Source: Pigoraptor vietnamica
Lineage: Eukaryota > Opisthokonta > Filasterea
Direction of reading: 5' to 3'
Assembly (NCBI GenBank): GCA_943704525.1
Contig: CALSCQ010002483.1
Coordinates: 1-40,000 of the forward strand
Length of the DNA stretch: 40,000 nucleotides
In this document: in pieces, positions 2,284-31,504 of the stretch
Layout of the letters: every line of letters begins with the position of its first letter
Numbering within the stretch: position 1 is the first letter of the stretch
Position numbers and translations under genes: made by a program
The notes under the pieces: model-generated
What the model was told of the DNA's origin: nothing
The model's input: only the letters and a program-made list of their open reading frames with translations
Databases searched by the model: none

Positions 2284-14009
<11,726 letters not shown>

Positions 14010-14592
14010 TATCTATCGATCGAAAAATAAGGAGTGTGATCTACGTGGGCTACGTCAGGCGTGAGTCGCCCGTAACACCGCTGGTCCCCTTGGAGGGCAT
14101 CTTAAAAGAAAAAACAGCGGGACTCTCGTGCCGCGCGCAAAAAGGCGGGTCGCGAGTGTGCGAATCGTCCCAAAAAAAGTCTGTTGGTTGAGAGGCCGCC
14201 CACCACGTTCATGTGTCAAACGGTGTTGGCGTGTGGATCTGTCACGTGACCATCGATGCCTCACCCCGGATGTCACATCTCCCTCCATGCCCATATATGG
14301 GAAATACCCACGAATGTCTAAATGTAGCTCATTTCGCGCGACGACAACCAAAACAGGCGTTGATCAACACACCGCCAGCCCCTCCCAGAGCCACTGCGGT
14401 ATTGTTCGCGTCGTCGATGCCTCTTCATTCTCCTGTCTTTCATCCCTCTCACGATCAGCGACCTCAATTGTGCGTGCGTGTGTGTGCGTGTGGGTGTGTC
14501 TCGTGCGTGCCTATGTGCAAGCCGCGCCAGCTGTCGTTCGCACGCAACACTCTTTGTTAGGAGGGGTACTCCCCACCCCTGCTGCACTCGCC
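14010..14592. promoter_or_regulatory. Shared divergent promoter region of SMG1 and integrin alpha
   Basis: The SMG1 start (14009, minus) and the integrin start (14593, plus) face away from each other across 583 bp, so both promoters should lie here. The region is less GC-rich than the exons, with a GT-rich stretch near 14470-14510. Apart from the CArG-type site listed separately I see no clear TATA box at a standard distance from either start. Confidence 0.6.
14291..14300. promoter_or_regulatory. CArG-box-like site (CCATATATGG)
   Basis: CCATATATGG fits CC(A/T)6GG, the site bound by SRF-type MADS-box factors. It sits inside a perfect 12-bp palindrome, about 290 bp upstream of the integrin alpha ATG and about 280 bp from the SMG1 ATG. 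In animals SRF controls many adhesion and cytoskeleton genes, which makes the placement suggestive. Function here is inference; a 10-bp match can occur by chance. Confidence 0.4.
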
Positions 14593-17500
14593 ATGGCGGC
14601 GGCGGCGGGCAGGGAAGGCGCGCATCGCCATGCGCTCGCCGCGATTTGCTTGCTGTCGGTCGTGGCAGCCGCTTCGGGGCAAAACATCTTCTACTCCTCC
14701 ACGCCGCTGTTTACGCTGTCCACGGATCAGCCGGGCGACTCGTACGGTGCGTGCTTGCAGTTGTATGCCCAATGTATATACTCAACGTTTTGCCGCACTC
14801 AATGTGATTGTTGTAACGTGCTCTTCTGTGCGGATGCAGGCTTTGCCGTCGGCGCCGGGGACTTTGACGGCGATGGCATTGCGGACGCTGTCGTGGGCTC
14901 TCCCACGTACACGCCGTGGCAGGATTCCGCGCAGTCGACGACAGCCACGTCGCAGAGCATGTTCCGCGACCGCACGGCGGAGGGCGCCCTCTATTTCCAC
15001 TACGCGCCGCAGCAGTCCGGCAAACCCCGCGACATTACGTCCATGTTCACGGGCATCCCTGCCAATTCGGTGTACCTCACGAACGGCATCACGTGCGCGC
15101 TGAACGTCGCCGACACGTACCTCTATCTCTTCAGCGGTAGTCGGGTGCTCACGATCGACCTCTCGACCAATGCCGTTGTGAGCGACGATACGATCGCGTC
15201 GCGCTTTGGGATATCGACGTCGTTCTTCGCGTCGGACCTGGACGCGGTGGCGCACCTGCGGCTGAACACGAACGCCGCGCCTCTCGTGTATTCGACGAAC
15301 GAGATCTATTTTTTCAAGGGCACGGACTACCTCGTGGTCGCCGTGACGCAGCAGGGGATGAAGGAGGTCTCGAGCAGCCGCGCGTCCATCTCGAGCCGCT
15401 TTCAGCTCATGCCGTTCGTGTCGAACCTCCAGTCGGTGCTGTGGGTCCCGCCCTCGCAGGCCATCTTCTTCCGCGACGGCAACTACTCTGTGTTCGATGT
15501 CGAGAACCGCCGCCCGCAGAACTACCCAAGCACCGCCACGCGCCCGGTGGCGTCGTCGATCTACCGCGGCCCCTTTGGCACGAACTTCCGCGCGACAGTG
15601 ACCATTCTCGACCCAACGGCACCCAACCACGCTCGCCGCGTGCTCTACTTCCAGGGGACGCGCGTCGCCCTGTTGTCGAACATGATCATCTCCAACGGCA
15701 CGTGGGTATCGGTGATTCACTCTCGCCGTCACGAGGCCACACAGAGAAGCTAACCTCACGCATACTTGCAGTTTTGCGGCGCCCACTTCAACGACGCAGT
15801 TCAAGACGGCCACGCGCTGGCGATCGTACTTTGGTGGCTCTATCGCAGTGGGGAAGTCTGGCGCGAGTGGGCCCGACAGCGCAGTCGCCGGTGCCTTCAG
15901 CGCCGACTTGAACAACGCGAACAGTGCGCGCTCGTTGGGGTGGGTGGCACGACTGCAGCGCGTCCCGTTTGTCGTGTCTGACACAGCACGCCTTGCCTGT
16001 GCAGAGTCGGCTACTACGACTACGGCCGTCTGTACCTCTTCGCCGGTTCGACGAGCGGCGTGCTCGCCCCGCAGTCGGCCGCCATTTCGTTCCTGGGCAC
16101 GGCGACGTCGGTGTGTCAGATGGGTTTCAGTGTGGGCCTCGGCCTCGCGAACAGCACGCGCGGGCTCAGCCGCGTCGTGTCGGGCGTCATCAACGCCAAT
16201 AGCATGGGCGGCATGATCATCTCGTACCCGGAGGGCGGCGTCGTCAACGACCTCGCCTCGACAGCGTGCGGCGTGGCCTACGGACAGTACTCGTCAAAGT
16301 GCGTGGCGCTTTGGGCAGTCGGTCCCGTCGCATTGTTTTCACTCACAGTGCGTCCGGACGTGTTTTGGGCTCCCTCTGACAGCCGCATTCGCCCTTCACA
16401 GGTTTGGCCATGCCATTGACGTGCTTGGCGATTTTGATGGCGACGGCGTGGACGGTGCGTGTGGGCGCTGTCTGTCGCTCAGATGCATCATGCGATACAT
16501 CATGCGTATCGCGTATTGCGTCTCGAGTGCAGCACAATCTCTGTCCAACGGCGGAGAGCCGGGGGGAGGGGGGTTATTTGCTGTGTGCGGTTCTGACCCA
16601 CCCTCTCTTTTGCGCAGACGTCGTTGTGGGGAGCATCAAGGGCGACCAGACGCAGGACATCATTTTTGGCGGCGATGTGTCCATCTTCAGCGGCGCGTAC
16701 GCCGAGGTCAGGAGCCAGTACACGACCCTCTCGATTGTGTGGAAGCGCGGGGGCACTGTCGTTGGCGGCCGTTTTGGGCATTCGCTGCTTTCGGTCGACA
16801 TCAACAAGGATGGGTATGTGTCGCTGTTCTGCGCCCTCCGTTCGCGTCTTCGCTGTGTTCGGTGACAGTGAAATTGACGCTGGACTTTCTGCTCGCAGCC
16901 TTGACGATCTCTTCGTTGGCGCCCCGAGCGCGTCACCCGGCGGCCGCGTGTATCTCTTCCTGCAGAACCCGCGCCCCAGCGGCCTCTCGACGGTCGAGTC
17001 GTGGACGTTCGATGGCCCGGCCAACGACGAGGAGTTTGGCTATGCGATGGCGCTTGCCGGCGACGTGAACAAGGACGGTTACCCGGGTGCGTGCTCCTTT
17101 GTTCGTATAGGCTGAGTGTGTTGTGCGGATGGCATTCGTCGCTCATACGTCCCGTGCTGCTGCGGGCTCTGCGCAGACGTCGTGATCGGGGCGCCCTTCT
17201 ACAACAATCGGCAGGGCCGCATCTTCATCTTCTTTGGCGGCGCATCCGGGCCAGGCGCAGCCCCCAACGAAATTGTGTACGGGTCGTCGCTGTCGCCCGC
17301 GGGTGCGCAGATGTTCGGCTTCTCCCTCGCGTCCGCGGACTTTGACGGCGACGGCTATCCTGGTGCGTGGGCAGCAGTCCCCCTTAATTTTTTTTTTTTT
17401 TCCCCCTGGTCTTGTTTTTTGTCGGTCATCTTTGTACCTCGTCTTTTCAGTATCTCACGCGAAGCCTTTTACTTTGGCCGTTGTGCTTTCTCGACAGATA

Positions 17501-20500
17501 TCCTCGTCGGCGCTCCCCGCAACGCAAACCCGACGGGCGGTTCTGTGGTGGCTGTGCGCGCGAGGCCTCAGTCGGACATCAACGTCCGCATTAGCCTGAA
17601 GAGCGCGACGGTGCGCACGGACGAGTCGTTCTCGTATCAGATCAACATCACGTGCAACGGGCCGTCCGCCCTCCCGAAATTTCGCATCATCGCCAACGTC
17701 TTTGTCCTCAACACGACGGTGCGTTTGGCGCGGCGCTCCTTGTGTGCGTGCTCTCCGCTTTGCACCCGACGCGCATGTACCTGCTACTCTCGTGGCTAAT
17801 ATGTGTGAGCTCTTTCCCTTCAGGTGAGCACGCCCGTCGCCACCTTCCCCAACGGCGCGGCCGTCCCCTACACGACGTTCTGGACGCCCACGTCGAGCGG
17901 CTGGATATTCTCGGTGGATGCCGGCCTTGCGGTTGGCGCGCGCACGAGCATCACGGTGAACTATGGCAGCTTCAACACGAGCCTGCAGTACCCGTCGTCG
18001 GTGACGCTCACGGCGCGCGCGGACGTGCCGGCGGACGTGATCGATCCGTTCCCCGACACGGACTCTAGCAGCGCCACGGTTTCGATTGTGTCGGTCGCAG
18101 ACCTCTTCGTGAGCGGGCGTGTGTCGCTGAACACAACGGCCGTCAACGGAACCAGCTTCAACGCCACGACGGGCACGGTGCGCATTCGACAGGGCGACCC
18201 CCTCTACATTTCGAACGTCACGGTCGGCAATCGCGGGCCGAGCACGGCGTTTGGGCTGACAATCACACTGACTTTGCCCGTGGGCGTGTTCCTCGACAAC
18301 ATTACGTCGCCGATCACGTGCAGCGGGCGCGGGCCGGTCGTGTGCACCACGGGCGCGCTCCCGCCGGGCGGGCTTGTGACGCTTACGTGAGTGCGAGGGA
18401 GGAAAGTGTACTGTCACGTGAGGTGGGCTTTGCTTACACACCTTTTGTTGCAGGAACATTCAATTGTCCACGCCCGGTTTGACGAAGAGCGACAGCGTGA
18501 CCGTGCGTGTGACGTCAGCCGGCCTCGACCCCACCCCTAATGACGCAGTGGTACGTGGCGGTCGCGCGTGTTTTTGAATTGGCGACAGACTCTGAACCGT
18601 CGTTTCTGCTCGCGCGCGTGAATTGCAGTCATCCTCGAACAACGTGGACGTGCTGTCCTTTGGCACCAAACTCTTTGTGGACTCGATCAAGATTGAGTCG
18701 GCGACAGACGACCCGAACATCTACGTGGGCTCGTCCGTCCGCGTGATTGCGCAGGTGAGCCAGCAGCATCATTCTCTTGCGAACGCCTAGAGCCTCCAAC
18801 CCACCCCCTCCCTTACTCACTGTATCCAACGCTTACTTTGCGACAGGTTACGAACCAGGGACCCCGCGACGCGATTGCGTCCACCATGCGCTTTGAGATT
18901 CCCTCCACATTCGAGAAGACGCAGGCAAACCTCCAGCCCGCGACCCTGCCCAGCACGTACAACGACGAGCGCCCCGGCGCCGGTCCCCTCTACAACGTGT
19001 CGTACTCTGTCACGACGTTCCCCTTCCAGGCCCAGATTGTGATGACGACCGTCTTCCGCATCGCATCGAACGCCGTGGGGTCGTCCGTCAGCGCCAAGGT
19101 GGTCGCCATTTCCAGCGACGAAACGGGTACCAATTTCTACGCGACGGCGAACAAGCCGCTCGGTCGCAAGTCGGATCTGTCGCTGACCCTGGCGGACAGG
19201 CTGGGACGCATCACGCCCGTCGTGAACGAGGTGATCAACGCCACGGCCACCGTCGTCAACATTGGCCCGTCGGACATGCTGGCGGCCGCGACCGCGACGG
19301 TCTCGTTTGTCGTGGGGGACGTCGCACTGACGTACCCGCGCATTTTGTCGATGGCCGCTGGGTGCACTGCTGCGAACACGTCGGCCGGCATCACGACTGT
19401 CACGTGCACCGTGGGCGGGCTCAACCTGAACGACCGCGGGACGCTGTACGTAGCGTTTGTGCCGGCAACCGGCGCAGACAAGGTGACGATCGTGTCGAAG
19501 GACTCGACGGGTTCGACGCGCTCGACGTACGTGGTGCCCATTGAGCGCCGCGTGAACCTGCAGGGGTTCATCCAGGCGCAGGCGACCGAGGTGCGCACGC
19601 AGCAGCCCATGCAGTACTCGTTCATCGTCCGCAACGGCGGCCGCAATGACGCCACAAACGTCGTCATCAACCACACGCTGTCACAAACGACGCGCGCCCC
19701 GTTTGCGAACCACTTCACCGTCCAGCTGGCCGTGTACAGCACGCCCTCGGGTGACCAGAATTGCGACACGTCGAATCCCCGGTACATCATATGCAACCTC
19801 GGCACTCTCAAGGGTGTGTCGGCGGGCGGCGCCTCGCAGGTCCGAGGCCGCGTGCGCCTCCTTCCGGTGAACCCCGGCGTCGGCACGGTGTCAGTCGCGG
19901 GTGGGTCATTCGCCGCTTGCACCGCACCTGTTCATGTCGTGGTATGACTTTGTCGTCTCACTCTCCCTCCCTTCTCAAACGCGCACCCGCACGCGCAGTG
20001 ACTTCGACGCAGGCCGACCTGGACCCCTCCGACAACAGCGGCAGCTTCAACGTGTTCATCCAGGAAACCAGCGACATTGTGCTGGACGCCTCGTTCGATC
20101 CCCTGCTGCCCTACTACGGCGGCAAGCTCGTGATCACGCAGCGCATCGTTACCCTTGGTCCGGCCAACGCTACAAACGTGGCGCTCGCCGTCAACTTCCC
20201 GGCGGCGGCGCTTGCGTACGACCCCACGCCGGCGCAGGTCCAGAACTGCAATGTGACGGTGAGCACATGTGCCGCCCGGGTGCTCAGTTCCTTGTCGCTG
20301 ATCGTGAGCTGATGTATTCTTCTGTGGCCGTGCGTGACCTGCAGCTCAAGGGTGACCAGCGGTCGATTGCGTGCTCTGTGACGCCGCTGCTGCGCACGGA
20401 CAGTTCCGAGTCTGTGCAGTTCTTCTTCCGCGTGAACAGCACGTTCTACCAGCCCTCGTTCCCGTACTACGCGCGCATTTCGCAGTCGGTGGGTGGCTTC

Positions 20501-20576
20501 CACTTGATTGCAAAAGTGATTAGCTAATCGCACGGGCGAGTCATCGTGCCGTTATCGCAACAGCGCTCACCAACAT

Positions 20577-20612
<36 letters not shown>

Positions 20613-21429
20613 TTCTTCTTTCCACGCAGCCCCTCGAGGAGGGTCCGGACGAGGCTGCCTCAAGCAACAACATTCGGTCGATGGATATCTCCGTATACCC
20701 GCCTTACGCTGACCTCTCGCTCGTCCCGTCGACGGTGCCGACTGTGACGAACCAGGCCGGCTCGATTGTGTCCATCAACCTGACGCTCACGAATCGCGGC
20801 CCGCTCAGCGTCCCGTACGTTGTGCTGAGCCGCCTGCGCTGGCCGTCGTCGGTCACCCCGACGAGCATCATGCTCACGTCGGAGAACTCGACGTTCCTGT
20901 CGGCGTGCGTGGGGCAGACGACGTGCGTCCTCCCAGCGATGAACCTCTCGGCAGTGACCACAATCATCCTCACTGGGACGTACAACCCGCCCGCACAGGC
21001 GCCCTCCGAGCTCGGCTTTGCGCTGAACGTCTCAAGTCCTGTGCTTGACATGAACGAGGCGAACAACGTTGTCGTGCTGCGTGCGCCCGTGGTCGCGGCG
21101 GCGGCGGCAACCGTCGTTTCCGGCAGCAGCGGCGGCGTTGCCGCGTGGATTATCGCAGTCGCCGTCGTCGGTGCCGTTCTCCTGATTGGCGGTGCGTGTG
21201 TTACGTCAAAAGAGGGTGAAGTGTTGTGGAAGGGTCCGCGACAAGCGACTTTTCGCGGTAGTGTCTGTGTTGCATGTCTGCTGACGCGCTGCTCCCAATC
21301 CACGCAGCGGTCGTGTTTGGCCTCTACCGTTACGGGTTCTTCAAGCGCAAGCTGCCCCCGCTCATGGACTTTGACGGCGCGAACCCCGTCGGCGCGACGA
21401 CAGTGGAGCCGCCGCCCCTCGAGGACTAG
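14593..21429 (+). CDS. Integrin alpha chain, complete, with hemopexin-like insertion
   Basis: This is a type I membrane adhesion receptor subunit that should pair with an integrin beta. Exons: 14593-14746, 14840-15701, 15772-15939, 16005-16298, 16402-16454, 16618-16813, 16899-17086, 17177-17362, 17498-17718, 17824-18386, 18454-18550, 18629-18754, 18847-19900, 19999-20258, 20345-20488, 20630-21191, 21308-21429. All phases agree, giving 1,749 residues. The ATG has a CCATGG context and begins a signal peptide of about 29 residues. Seven FG-GAP blades can be counted near residues 50, 358, 434, 493, 562, 622 and 684. Blades 1 and 4-7 carry Ca-binding loops such as DFDGDGIAD and DINKDGLDD; blades 2 and 3 lack them. 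Between blades 1 and 2, residues about 115-335, are four hemopexin-like repeats (IYFFKGTDYL, AIFFRDGNYSVF). Residues about 705-1690 form a beta-rich stalk with many N-x-S/T sites. A membrane helix at about 1694-1718 is followed by GFFKR (1719-1723) and a short tail. Nothing looks broken. Confidence 0.95.
20579..20612. repeat. Poly-C run of 34 in integrin intron 15
   Basis: Thirty-four consecutive C lie in the 141-bp intron 20489-20629, 17 bases before its 3' splice site. It forms part of the polypyrimidine tract. A run this long may also be length-variable or partly a sequencing artefact. Confidence 0.95.
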
Positions 21430-21607: not shown

Positions 21608-21674
<67 letters not shown>

Positions 21675-27400: not shown

Positions 27401-28591
27401 TACGTGCTTCACATGGGCTCACGCACACGCAGCACACCGGGGGTGTCTTCATGATAAACCCACCAATGTGTATCTCCCCGCGCAGAAACGTCCCCGTCGT
27501 GATAACAATCGCCTTGCACGGAATGTGCGTGCCGTCAGCTGCGATGCACCACGCCGACGTCAGTCCCTCCACAGCAGGCCCAAACAGCAAGTCCAAATGT
27601 GAAGAGACGGAAATCAAATTGGCAGGTGCATCGGACCAGCGTGTGCATCCAGACGCACCGAGCTTCACCCCAGCAATGCCCGGCCGAGAGTCGCCCGATA
27701 ACGGCATGCCGTCGTGCAGCACGAGGTCCTCCACGGCAGCCGCGTGGACGGTGAGGTTGGGGTAGGACAACATCGTGCGCTGCATGTGCTCGCGATAGAG
27801 GTCGCGATCCATTTGCGCACGCGGTCCCTGCGTGCGAGCATGGCAACTGCGAGTGAGCAAACGAATTGTGTGCGTGCGCCAGAAGGAATACATGCACGGA
27901 CACAAGACGCGCGCCAATTGCGCTAGAATGGCGTGATGAGACCCACCCACACAGCCGGTCCACGGCTCCGATTAAGCACGCGGAATTGCACACCAGCGGC
28001 GTCTGTCGCAGCAAACAAGCTCAGTCAATATCCACCACAACGAAGGCGGACGCATCAGAGCAAAGCACGTGACACGCGGAGGGCAAGCCGAACACCCACC
28101 GCAGACCTTCCCGCACACGCCGTCGAGGGCGTCCACTTCGCGCACAAGTGTGCCCTTTCCGATGCCACCAAACGACGGATTGCACGACATTTCGCCTGCA
28201 AGAGCACACGTTAAGGACTGTGCTCACATACAGATGTGCCAGCGCAGTCTCCTAAGGACGCGCGTACGGAGAAGTGGCTGTGAACTGTCTGCAGGCTCTG
28301 TTACCCCTAGCGGCGCGTACCGATCGTGGATATCTTGTGTGTTAGAAGCAGCGTGCGGGCACCCGTGCGTGCAGCGCCAGCGGCTGCCTCGCACCCTGCG
28401 TGCCCTCCGCCCACGACGACGACATCGTAGCCAGCCGCGGGGTCGATGGCGTGGCCGTTGGGGCCGACGGGGCGTGTCACGTGCGGATCGGCGTGTGCTT
28501 GCTGCGAGAACGTCCGTCGCCGTGCGTGTGGCACTCGAAGCAACGACGGAGCGGCCACGCGGGCGCGCCGCACAACACACGCAAGATGCAT
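24492..28591 (-). CDS. MTO1: MTO1, mitochondrial tRNA 5-(carboxymethyl)aminomethyluridine enzyme (GidA/MnmG family)
   Basis: MTO1 is an FAD protein that, with the GTPase GTPBP3 (MnmE), modifies C5 of the wobble uridine in mitochondrial tRNAs. Fifteen exons on the minus strand: 28591-28321, 28195-28100, 28002-27947, 27827-27464, 27370-27269, 27075-26963, 26824-26715, 26635-26562, 26447-26331, 26029-25756, 25506-25445, 25341-25176, 25057-24948, 24843-24747, 24657-24492. Phases agree throughout, giving 725 residues (human about 717). The frame is open upstream of 28591, but this is the first ATG. Residues 1-45 are Arg/Ala/Ser-rich without acidic residues until later, as expected of a mitochondrial presequence. 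The FAD-binding motif is [14 protein letters not shown] (about 54-67). Family signatures are [26 protein letters not shown] (near 370) and [17 protein letters not shown] (near 464). [15 protein letters not shown] and the C-terminal [14 protein letters not shown], which contacts the partner, are also present. It should be functional. Several introns carry tandem repeats. Confidence 0.97.
25587..25750. repeat. 15-bp minisatellite in MTO1 intron 10
   Basis: The unit CCACGCAAAATAGGA recurs about 11 times. Eight copies are perfect at exact 15-bp spacing (AAAATAGGA cores beginning near 25592, 25607 and so on), followed by three degenerate copies. On the coding strand the array begins at once after the GTGAGT splice donor at 25755-25750 and fills two thirds of the 249-bp intron. 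Because 15 is divisible by three, it creates long meaningless open frames in several phases. Confidence 0.95.
26023..26214. repeat. 43-bp tandem duplication copying the 3' splice site of MTO1 exon 10
   Basis: A 43-bp unit begins at 26023 and is repeated at 26066; a third, shorter copy lies near 26178-26214 after an intervening segment that is itself partly duplicated. The unit contains the branch/acceptor region of intron 9 and the first seven bases of exon 10, so copy 2 carries a duplicate of the real acceptor. Splicing to that copy would add 43 bases and shift the frame. Confidence 0.9.
26271..26305. repeat. Degenerate interstitial telomere-like repeats (CCCTAA type)
   Basis: On the plus strand this stretch reads as imperfect CCCTAA/CCCTCA/CCCCAA units ending with two good ones (AACCCTAACCCTA). 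A single related word, CCTAACCCC, occurs about 100 bp earlier at 26167 at the matching place of the duplicated intron segment. TTAGGG telomeres are common in animals, fungi and many protists. Confidence 0.7.
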
Positions 28592-28863
28592 GGCAGGGGT
28601 TCCGTCGCTCAACTCACAGAGACACACAAAGCGCGCGTGTGTTTGAAGACGCCGTACCCGTGCGGTGTTGGGCAAGGCACGTGCCACTGGCTGGGCGTCA
28701 TTTCAAGTCATGACGGACACATGACGCAATACGACAAATTTGGAACCCTCACCTTACATTCTTGTTTAACACCCACCTTATCTGTGAATGGTGGCCGTGT
28801 TGACCGGTGTTCCACGCCCTCACACTTCTCGGCCGCAGTCACCCGACACAGTCTACTCACACT

Positions 28864-28909
<46 letters not shown>

Positions 28910-29149
28910 GGCTCTCTCTCTCTCACACACAACACACACACAACTTCATAACGCCTGTTGCAAGATTGTGAGCACATAGACTCAACACGCGCTTTACTCG
29001 CGCACGCACACAGCCCACGCTCACGTCGCAAACAGCTTACGCGCACAACCCCTCACGGTTCTTTTTCACTTTGCCGCTAGCTGCGGTTTATATTTCATTG
29101 ACGCTCACGCCGTCGTCGCCTCCCGGGGCGCGCTTTGCCTGCGGACAAA
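28592..29149. promoter_or_regulatory. Shared divergent promoter region of MTO1 and NoxR
   Basis: MTO1 starts leftwards at 28591 and NoxR starts rightwards at 29150. The 558-bp gap contains a CA microsatellite at 28868-28908, a CT/CA-rich tail to about 28942, and an AT-rich TTTATATTTC at 29087-29096, about 55 bp before the NoxR ATG, which may act as a TATA-like element. Nothing else stands out. Confidence 0.55.
28868..28908. repeat. (CA)n microsatellite
   Basis: About 20 CA units, followed by a CT run and a second short CA stretch to 28942. It lies roughly midway in the MTO1/NoxR divergent promoter gap. Confidence 0.97.
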
Positions 29150-31504
29150 ATGCTGCTCAAGGAGACTATTGTGAAGTGGAACGAAGCGTGCATTGCGTTT
29201 GACGCGGGCGACTATGCAAAGGCCCTTGGGCTGTTTACGGACGTCGCGGACTCTGCAAAGCTCTTCTTTGGTATGGGCGTGTGCTGCGCCCGCCTGGGTC
29301 GCCATGCGGACGCAATCAAGGTGTGCCTGGTGGCCGTGTGTTCGAGTGCGAGCGGTTGCGATTCGTCGCGTTGTTGCCTCGTCGCAGTATTGTGTTGATG
29401 TGTCGCTGTGTTTGTTTGTGCGGGCGAGACGAGTTAGAAGCGTCAAGGTAGAAGACTGTGGCATGTTTTGCTCCATGTAAACAGTAGCACGGAGACGTGC
29501 ATAGCCGCCCGATTTTGGCCATATCATTTCTCAGACTCTCACGCCTCCCCAAACGACTCCCTGCAGCATTTTACGGAGGCCATCGCGCGCGACGAGCACC
29601 TCGCCGTCGGCTACTTTGAGCGCGGCCTCGTGCTGCAGAGCATGGGCAACCACGAGGGGTGTCTTGCGGACTACGACGAGGCGCTGAACCGCCTGCGCGG
29701 GAACGAGCTTATCGACTACAAGCAGCTCGGCCTTGACTTCAAGCTGTACGCGTGCGAGATTCTCTTCAACCGAGCCCTCGCCCAGCTCGCAATCAACATG
29801 CGCGACACGGCCGTGGAGGACCTCCAGATTGCCTCCCAGCTGAAGAAGGAGGCGCGGCAGGCGTGCATCGACACGGCGCTCGTGGATGCGCAGCGCACGG
29901 GCTCGGCGCGGTCGTCCAAGCCGTTCACCGTGTGCAGCGGCTTTCTCTTTCGTCCGCCGGCGGACAAGGTTGCGAACGCAAAGGACGTTGACTTTATCAA
30001 GGGCAAGGGGAAGGTCGTCGCCGCGCTCGATTCGAACGACAACTTCACGGGGTTTTCGGGCCGAAAGTTCCACGGCGCCCCCGGTGCAACGCCGTTGCCA
30101 CGCCAGGCGAGCAGCAGCACGGACGACCTGCACAGCACGTCGAGCAGCGGCGCTACGCTGGCACCCCCGGCGCAGCTCGGCCGGCGCCGTTCCATGTCCA
30201 CGGATTCGTTTGATATGAAGCAACAGCAGCAGGAGGTGGAAAAGGCGCGCGCGTCGACGGGCCCGCAACGCCCCTCGACAGTCGCCGCGCCCTCGGCCGC
30301 GCTTCCTTCCCGCCCAAATGCGCCAAAGGCGGCACTGCCGAGCAGGGTAAGTGACGCCCTCTCGTGTGCGTGTGTGCATCGCCTTTCGAGTGTTGGGTGT
30401 CGTTCGTACTTCTTTGTGAGTGCGTGTGCGTTAGTTGTCTTGCCGGAGGGCAAGTGTCGATACGGTGATTGCTCACCAACACCATTTAACTCGTGCGACA
30501 ATGCAACACAGCCATCCACCACGGCCGCACCCTCCGCGGCCCAGGAGCCGCCTACGTCCCCGCACTATTACTCGACCCCAAAGCGAACGTTTGGTTCGTC
30601 GCCGTCGCCCGCACCTGCGCCCGCGCCCGCCCAGTCCAGCGCACCCGCGCCAGGCCCCCACCGGCCACCCCCGCCGCGCACTGCGCCGCCCGCACACTCA
30701 GCCGCGCCGGCGCAGGAGACGCCCGTGAAGAAGTGGTCGACGGGAACCACGCCTGCGCAGTCCGCACACTCAGCCGCGCAGGCACAGGAGACGCCCGTGA
30801 AGAAGTGGTCGACGGGAACCACGCCTGCGCAGTCGTCCGGTCAGGGCGACGCGCCGTGGGTCAAAAAATCGTCCACGGGCTCCGCACCAGCACACAATCC
30901 GCCGCCGCAAGTACCGCAGCCACCGATTCCTGCGTCGGAAAAGGTGTCGGCTCCCACCGCCGCCCTGCTTGCCAAATTTGGGGGCGGCGTGGCGCACGGC
31001 GGGCCGGCGGTGGACTCGCGGCCCATATCGACCGTGTCCGGATACTCGGGCTTGTCGGGAGTGTCGAGCGCCAGTGATGGGACGGTGCGTGTTGTGCATC
31101 GCATGTCTGCGCGTGCAATTCAGCTGCGTTGCGCGGTTCTTTGCAAACATGAGCCCTTGCGTTGCTTCCATTGGACGATGTGCGCTAAATTGGAAGCCTC
31201 TGTTTAATGGGCGATGTGCGCTGAGTCGGGCGCCTTGTTTAATGGGCGATGTGCGCTGAGACGCCCACCCTTTGCGCAGATGAAAATCAAGTGCCATTAC
31301 AAGGACACGCGCGTGGTGCAGGTGCCCGTCGACGTCTCGTTTGCCGACCTCCACGCCGCCGTGCTCAAGAAGTTTGGCGCGACCAAACTGACGCTGCAGT
31401 ACAAGGACGAGGACGGCGACCTCGTGTCGATGGCCGACCAGTCGGACCTCGACATGGCCCGCGAGGCCATGCAGAACAAGCTCCTCCTCTGGTGCACAGA
31501 CTAA
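29150..31504 (+). CDS. p67phox/NoxR-type NADPH oxidase activator (TPR, activation segment, PB1)
   Basis: In animals and fungi this family, together with Rac, activates superoxide-producing NADPH oxidase. Exons are 29150-29320, 29567-30346, 30512-31084 and 31280-31504, all phase 0, giving 582 residues. The first ATG at 29150 (A at -3) begins MLLKETIVKWNEACIAF, aligned with the start of p67phox. Residues 1-165 are the TPR domain; HLAVGYFERG and LRGNELIDYKQLGLDFKLYA match the p67phox TPR region closely. Residues about 200-222 (GKVVAALDSNDNFTGFSG) match the oxidase-activating segment, at the same position as in p67phox. Residues about 225-508 are Pro/Ser/Ala-rich and contain a recent 24-residue tandem duplication (ETPVKKWSTGTTPAQS). 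Residues 509-582 are a PB1 domain ending in LLLWCTD. No SH3 domain is present, as in fungal NoxR. The oxidase itself is not in the window. Intron 2 is a multiple of three with no stop. Confidence 0.93.
30692..30834 (+). repeat. 72-bp coding tandem duplication in NoxR
   Basis: Two nearly identical 72-bp units (30692-30763 and 30764-30834) encode two copies of a 24-residue segment containing ETPVKKWSTGTTPAQS. A third, weaker copy at protein level follows (APWVKKSSTGSAPAH). The nucleotide identity suggests a recent expansion of the linker before the PB1 domain. Confidence 0.92.
31174..31260. repeat. 35-bp minisatellite in NoxR intron 3
   Basis: Two close copies begin at 31201 and 31236 (core TGTTTAATGGGCGATGTGCG), preceded by a partial diverged copy from about 31174. 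All lie in the 195-bp intron 31085-31279, just before the PB1 exon. Confidence 0.85.

Follow-up and report, generated by a model that had tools for sequence, protein, structure and literature searches.

We analyzed a gene of the filasterean protist Pigoraptor vietnamica, located in a stretch of 40,000 nucleotides (assembly GCA_943704525.1, contig CALSCQ010002483.1, positions 1 to 40,000; hereafter the window), which encodes an integrin alpha-like protein with a hemopexin-like insert behind the first blade of its head. Integrins are the adhesion receptors with which animal cells hold on to what surrounds them. In our view, the protein is probably the alpha subunit of an integrin heterodimer in which a complete hemopexin-type propeller, an extra recognition module, is set into the head after strand C of blade 1 and before strand A of blade 2. 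The computational analysis gives an open frame with its splicing, a head of seven blades, homology of the insert to hemopexin domains together with a predicted fold, a GFFKR tail, and genes for beta subunits and talin in the same genome.

An integrin alpha-like gene with an interrupted head

The gene occupies positions 14593..21429 of the + strand. Spliced by hand from genomic DNA, it has 17 exons and encodes 1749 amino acids. Its 16 introns are 65-163 bases long, each of them reads GT...CAG, and a single open frame runs through to the stop codon. Exon 1 (14593..14746) encodes a hydrophobic N-terminus, judged by eye to be a putative signal peptide, and the strand entering blade 1. Exon 2 (14840..15701) contains blade 1 and the complete hemopexin-like insert in one open frame, and exons 3-4 (15772..16298), assigned mostly by eye, provide the return out of the insert followed by blades 2 and 3. 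Scanned alone against Pfam, exon 2 gives a match to FG-GAP at E 2.6e-6 and one to Hemopexin at E 3e-6. The first-pass annotation, made from the letters of the sequence, had placed a hemopexin-like domain after blade 1, and this is what we find: exon 2 goes from blade 1 to the insert, and blade 2 starts in exon 3. The site is also, as it had stated, distinct from that of the animal I domain (between blades 2 and 3), since the insert precedes blade 2.

The gene model was made from the genomic sequence of an assembly in 1395 contigs, and an error of assembly or of modelling might have brought in a hemopexin stretch from another gene. We consider such an artefact very improbable: blade 1 continues into the insert within a single exon that is free of stops over 286 codons, a standard intron regains the frame for blade 2, and exon 2 has a single match in its own genome, which is exon 2 itself, with no second copy.

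Judged from its sequence, the protein has two features of integrin alpha subunits, a seven-bladed FG-GAP propeller and a GFFKR tail. The FG-GAP profile (PF01839) matches the spliced protein in five stretches (E 2.1e-38). Blade 1 (W1), with strands A-C and a DFDGDG loop, covers 14842..15027, and PF01839 is above its cut-off there on exon 2. Human integrin alpha-5 aligns with the last four blades of the head, its own blades 4-7 being in register with them (E 7.5e-27). This alignment ends on blade 7; counting back gives seven blades, the first of which is in exon 2. Blades 4-7, in exons 5-9 (part) at 16402..17600 (end approximate), have four calcium loops of the DxNxDG type; over the whole head, DxDxDG-type loops are located at residues 59 (DFDGDG, blade 1), 503, 571, 631, and 693. 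The link between blades 2 and 3 scores 18.1 bits with the blade profile, these two blades being otherwise assigned by eye. The head is followed by a long, putatively extracellular stalk of DUF11/CARDB-like repeats (17600..21100, ends approximate; PF01345 in six stretches, E 3.4e-22) and by a putative transmembrane helix, identified by eye, which spans the last intron between exons 16 and 17 (21140..21330). Last comes GFFKR (residues 1719-1723), the cytoplasmic motif of integrin alpha chains, at 21334..21369, where PF00357 scores 20.4 bits for a cut-off of 20.2 and gives the top of three matches in a profile search of the genome. No VWA family is found among the ten Pfam families listed for the spliced protein at E up to 10.

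The insert is related to hemopexin domains

From the profiles and the structure model, the insert extends over residues 115-338 (224 residues, 15028..15699), a little more than first noted, and has four predicted blades. The four motifs quoted in the first-pass annotation are all in frame, and correspond to the cores of repeat 1 (YLYLFSGSRV, residue 145, 15118..15147), repeat 2 (IYFFKGTDYL, residue 207, 15304..15333), repeat 3 (AIFFRDGNYS, residue 259, 15460..15489), and repeat 4 (VLYFQGTRV, residue 319, 15640..15666). Their spacing had been put at about 55-60 residues and measures 62, 52, and 60. We scored each repeat with a single-repeat hemopexin profile and compared it with 1000 shuffles. 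Repeats 1, 2, and 3 obtain 17.8, 22.5, and 20.6 bits, values reached by none of their 1000 shuffles. The divergent repeat 4 obtains -1.6 bits, a value reached by 337 of 1000, and has strands in the structure model. In other words, three of the four proposed repeats are beyond chance by sequence and the fourth is not significant alone. With the Pfam profile (PF00045, cut-off 21.3 bits), exon 2 scores 27.5 bits and the insert alone 24.7 bits; the expected match is thus there, but it is confined to a single stretch, located on repeat 2, in place of four repeats. Comparison of the repeats with each other gives a weak signal, the best of the six pairs being repeats 1 and 4 (90 of 2000 shuffles as high).

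We then compared the insert with two hemopexin profiles built from 121 proteins (P0013-P0133), the insert being excluded. It matches them at E 2.3e-17 and 4.2e-18, and its 2000 shuffles reach 0.14 and 0.043 at best. These values are to be read with the caution that 120 of the 121 proteins were found through an alignment containing the insert and P0013, and are 120 listed out of 220. All of these 120 carry the Pfam Hemopexin label, and are hence hemopexins on further grounds as well. With the same two profiles, none of 13 control pieces of this integrin is above -0.8 bits, and ten FG-GAP propeller proteins give six reported matches per profile, none of which exceeds 0.2 bits. The first-pass annotation had named an ordinary loop or extra FG-GAP blades as the outcome that would refute it, and the propeller-like spacing of 52-62 residues could be cited for a reading of the insert as extra FG-GAP blades or an unstructured loop. 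We give this explanation practically no credit: Pfam finds no FG-GAP match in the insert, the hemopexin profile matches it at E 4e-18 when the ten FG-GAP proteins score about zero, and the head already has its seven blades outside the insert.

When given an alignment of the insert with hemopexin proteins, AlphaFold2 models the insert as a four-bladed propeller, the fold proposed in the first-pass annotation, and the structural matches of this model include plant seed hemopexin-type proteins. A phmmer search of the insert against PDB sequences has three plant seed proteins at the top (E 0.008 to 0.05). We take these three to have the hemopexin fold, which agrees with their rank among the structural matches of the model. 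Two other alignments, A2 and A4, were rejected; they had the insert shifted one repeat out of register and repeat 4 mostly uncovered.

Position of the insert relative to the faces of the head

In integrin blades, the C-D hairpin and the D-A loop face opposite sides of the head. Taking RDITSMFTG, which precedes the insert, as strand D of blade 1 would put the insert in the D-A loop and on the ligand face. Taking STTQFKTA, which follows the insert, as this strand would put it in the C-D hairpin and on the opposite face. The test of the two candidates is tied: their best variants score 8.5 bits (before) and 8.6 bits (after), with a range of 6.2-8.6 over five variants and 4.4 without strand D. Hence, the position on the ligand face, as first proposed, is not established, since the two sites are on opposite faces.

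The main rival to our reading follows from the second site. There, on the underside of the head, the insert would be a regulatory or structural module without ligand contact, and might brace the head on the stalk, set the balance between bent and extended forms, or make contacts between neighbouring receptors. The structure model favors this site: the first segment of the insert (I-x-S-x-F, as at the start of its other repeats) is modelled with high confidence inside the hemopexin fold, so that STTQFKTA would be left as strand D. Yet, the strand-D test is tied, RDITSMFTG is also strand D-like, and the assignment of faces follows general integrin geometry. We regard this alternative as unlikely, while still giving it some weight.

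Integrin and hemopexin genes in the rest of the genome

The genome has other alpha-like genes, one at C661 (its C-terminal part is beyond the contig end) and two at C928 (one without its N-terminal part). In the two readable paralogs (C661 and C928, hand splicing), the distance from blade 1 strand C to the FG of blade 2 is 21 and 20 residues, versus 254 here. These paralogs (C661:1-3400 and C928:24000-28500) have, as seen by eye, another insert of ~310-340 residues within blade 2, located between a strand with APGCTSG and the following strand of GKVFAFDN type. The blade-2 inserts are related to each other (E 4e-20, 41% over 121 columns). They have no Pfam family above cut-off, and that of C661 has no match at E 1 among PDB sequences. 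The idea that the intron between exons 2 and 3 is the linker intron of the paralogs was dropped, because their phases (2 vs 0) and their distances to the FG of blade 2 differ.

The profile of the beta subunit VWA domain (PF00362) is above cut-off at C661, C928, and C829, and below it at C373, in the genome search. In the open frames of C661, Pfam identifies VWA (E 6.5e-51) and EGF repeats; in those of C928, it identifies VWA (E 1.1e-26). A Talin VBS match is found at C232 (E 2e-17). At C661 (~3100-4600) and C928 (~28500-29900), alpha and beta genes are adjacent and on opposite strands, as if they had a common promoter region. A second GFFKR-type match of PF00357 (C819:32061-32087) is above cut-off only together with its neighbours and is perhaps another alpha gene. 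Three FG-GAP matches were set aside by eye as not being integrins: C244 resembles a ciliary protein of the BBS2 type, whereas C584 and C547 resemble proteins of the GPI-phospholipase D type.

Search of the genome with PF00045 resulted in at least nine matches. They are located at C911, C450, and C250, and two of them, both at C911, are above cut-off. The search missed the copy in the window, and these counts are lower bounds. An exon at C450 passes the cut-off if scanned alone. Given the matches at other loci, the hemopexin domain is not foreign to this genome. On the - strand of C911, we observed PA, fibronectin type II, hemopexin, bacterial-type Ig-like, and EGF-like domains in series, seemingly in one secreted-looking protein. 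At C450:38460-40280 and C250:400-2300, hemopexin-like repeats follow basic helix-loop-helix (bHLH)-like exons on the same strand, perhaps as bHLH-hemopexin fusions; Pfam HLH is above cut-off at C450 only, and the scanned pieces of C250 have neither HLH nor Hemopexin.

Weighing the integrin alpha assignment

Could the protein, with its DUF11 stalk, be an FG-GAP receptor of a single chain and not an integrin subunit, its tail resembling that of integrins by coincidence? Its stalk has DUF11/CARDB repeats in place of a clear thigh and calf, Integrin_A_Ig_3 (PF20806) scores 23.1 bits on the stalk of the spliced protein, slightly short of the cut-off of 23.6, the tail motif falls below cut-off (14.4 bits) when PF00357 is scored on the whole spliced protein, and the gene has no beta gene beside it (0 of the 8 PF00362 matches are on its contig). 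On the other hand, blades 4-7 are in register with human alpha-5, PF00357 is above cut-off in the genome search, where its match here ranks first of three, and the genome has beta genes, alpha-beta neighbours, and talin. A single-chain receptor thus seems to us improbable.

The absence of a clear thigh and calf in the sequence of the stalk and of a neighbouring beta gene also count against the assignment to an integrin alpha subunit with a hemopexin-type propeller, as do several other points. On the whole protein of 1749 residues, the Hemopexin match falls to 17.7 bits, under the cut-off. The predicted repeat 4 draws on its position, its weak likeness to repeat 1, and the structure model. The AlphaFold2 fold came from a hemopexin-guided alignment and is hence not independent of the homology; the alignment used (A3, the insert with 17 of the 121 hemopexin proteins) was picked out of three because it covered all four repeats, and exon 2 without an alignment folds poorly, with a predicted local distance difference test (pLDDT) score of 33.5. 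The DAA motif of hemopexin blades is mostly lost (TCA, DAV, QSV, RAT), so that the ion channel may be gone. In matrix metalloproteinases (MMPs), a disulfide links blades 1 and 4 of the hemopexin domain. The insert has a single Cys (residue 137), which rules out a disulfide of this type and, going by the sequence, speaks against the MMP subtype and not against the hemopexin fold.

Other features of the window

Upstream of the gene, on the - strand, a very long open frame of 1807 codons from stop to stop (8589..14012) has the look of a genuine, large protein. The intron preceding exon 16 contains a run of 34 C (20579..20612), and 63 A in a row (21611..21673) lie beyond the stop codon of the gene.

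Comparison with known proteins

No relative of exon 2 was confirmed in viral and genome contig collections, and comparison of the insert with phages and plasmids gave matches at E 4 to 9 only. In a large protein database, exon 2 has one distant hemopexin protein (E 3e-3). The headpiece search scored the 7994 candidates with the most words in common and listed ten FG-GAP proteins, none with hemopexin, in a database of uncertain eukaryotic content. Among the papers listed in the literature searched, which left subscription journals largely outside, none describes a hemopexin domain in an integrin or FG-GAP head, judging mostly by titles and the starts of abstracts. The combination of hemopexin and FG-GAP may already be listed mechanically in domain-combination surveys; one of these covers 172 eukaryotic genomes, Thecamonas included (PMC3499355).

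The protein shares with the integrin alpha subunits of animals, Capsaspora, and Thecamonas a seven-bladed FG-GAP head, calcium-type loops, a stalk, a single apparent membrane helix, and a GFFKR tail, as well as beta subunits and talin in the same genome. It differs from them by the hemopexin-like insert at blades 1/2, the DUF11/CARDB-like stalk, and a calcium-type loop in blade 1 too. For Thecamonas, one study reports an alpha-like sequence with three FG-GAP repeats in a record without membrane segment (PMC3192720). Like the chordate alpha-I (vWA) domain, the insert is a complete globular domain set into the alpha propeller. Here, the fold is that of hemopexin, not of vWA with a metal ion-dependent adhesion site, and the site is at blades 1/2, not 2/3. 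According to another study, the alpha-I insert is unseen in species that diverged before tunicates, and the alpha plan has been remarkably constant since its inception (PMC4237329). With the hemopexin domains of MMPs, vitronectin, plant seed albumins, and bacterial repeat proteins, the insert shares the four-bladed fold (in the model), the repeat signature, and an N-terminal segment with which repeat 1 starts and which contributes to closing the ring; its differences are the divergent repeat 4, the mostly missing DAA, the single Cys, and its location within another propeller.

A possible function and its implications

The hemopexin domains of vitronectin and of MMPs act as recognition modules. 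In an integrin alpha subunit with an extra module of this kind, the alpha protein would pair with a beta subunit, and the inserted propeller would protrude from the head and could recognise a protein of the matrix, of a prey, or of a partner cell. Load or binding at the insert would then pass through the head, the stalk, and the tails to talin. In this way, an unrelated domain at a different site would fill the role of the vertebrate alpha-I domain.

It is quite possible, if a little short of probable, that the heads of integrin alpha subunits in this protist lineage acquired recognition domains of unrelated kinds on more than one occasion and independently, which would make such uptake an older habit and not a chordate invention. 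This view draws on the hemopexin-like domain at blade 1 here and on the different domain of ~310-340 residues inside blade 2 of the C661 and C928 paralogs. The hemopexin-like module in the head of this integrin suggests that protists had a route of their own for adding modules to integrins, distinct from the one that gave vertebrates their inserted domain. If so, the integrin head tolerates insertions of whole domains at sites besides that of alpha-I, and protist integrins may read ligands through modules that animal integrins do not have. The gene described here offers a concrete construct to ask what integrins do in a cell without animal tissue.
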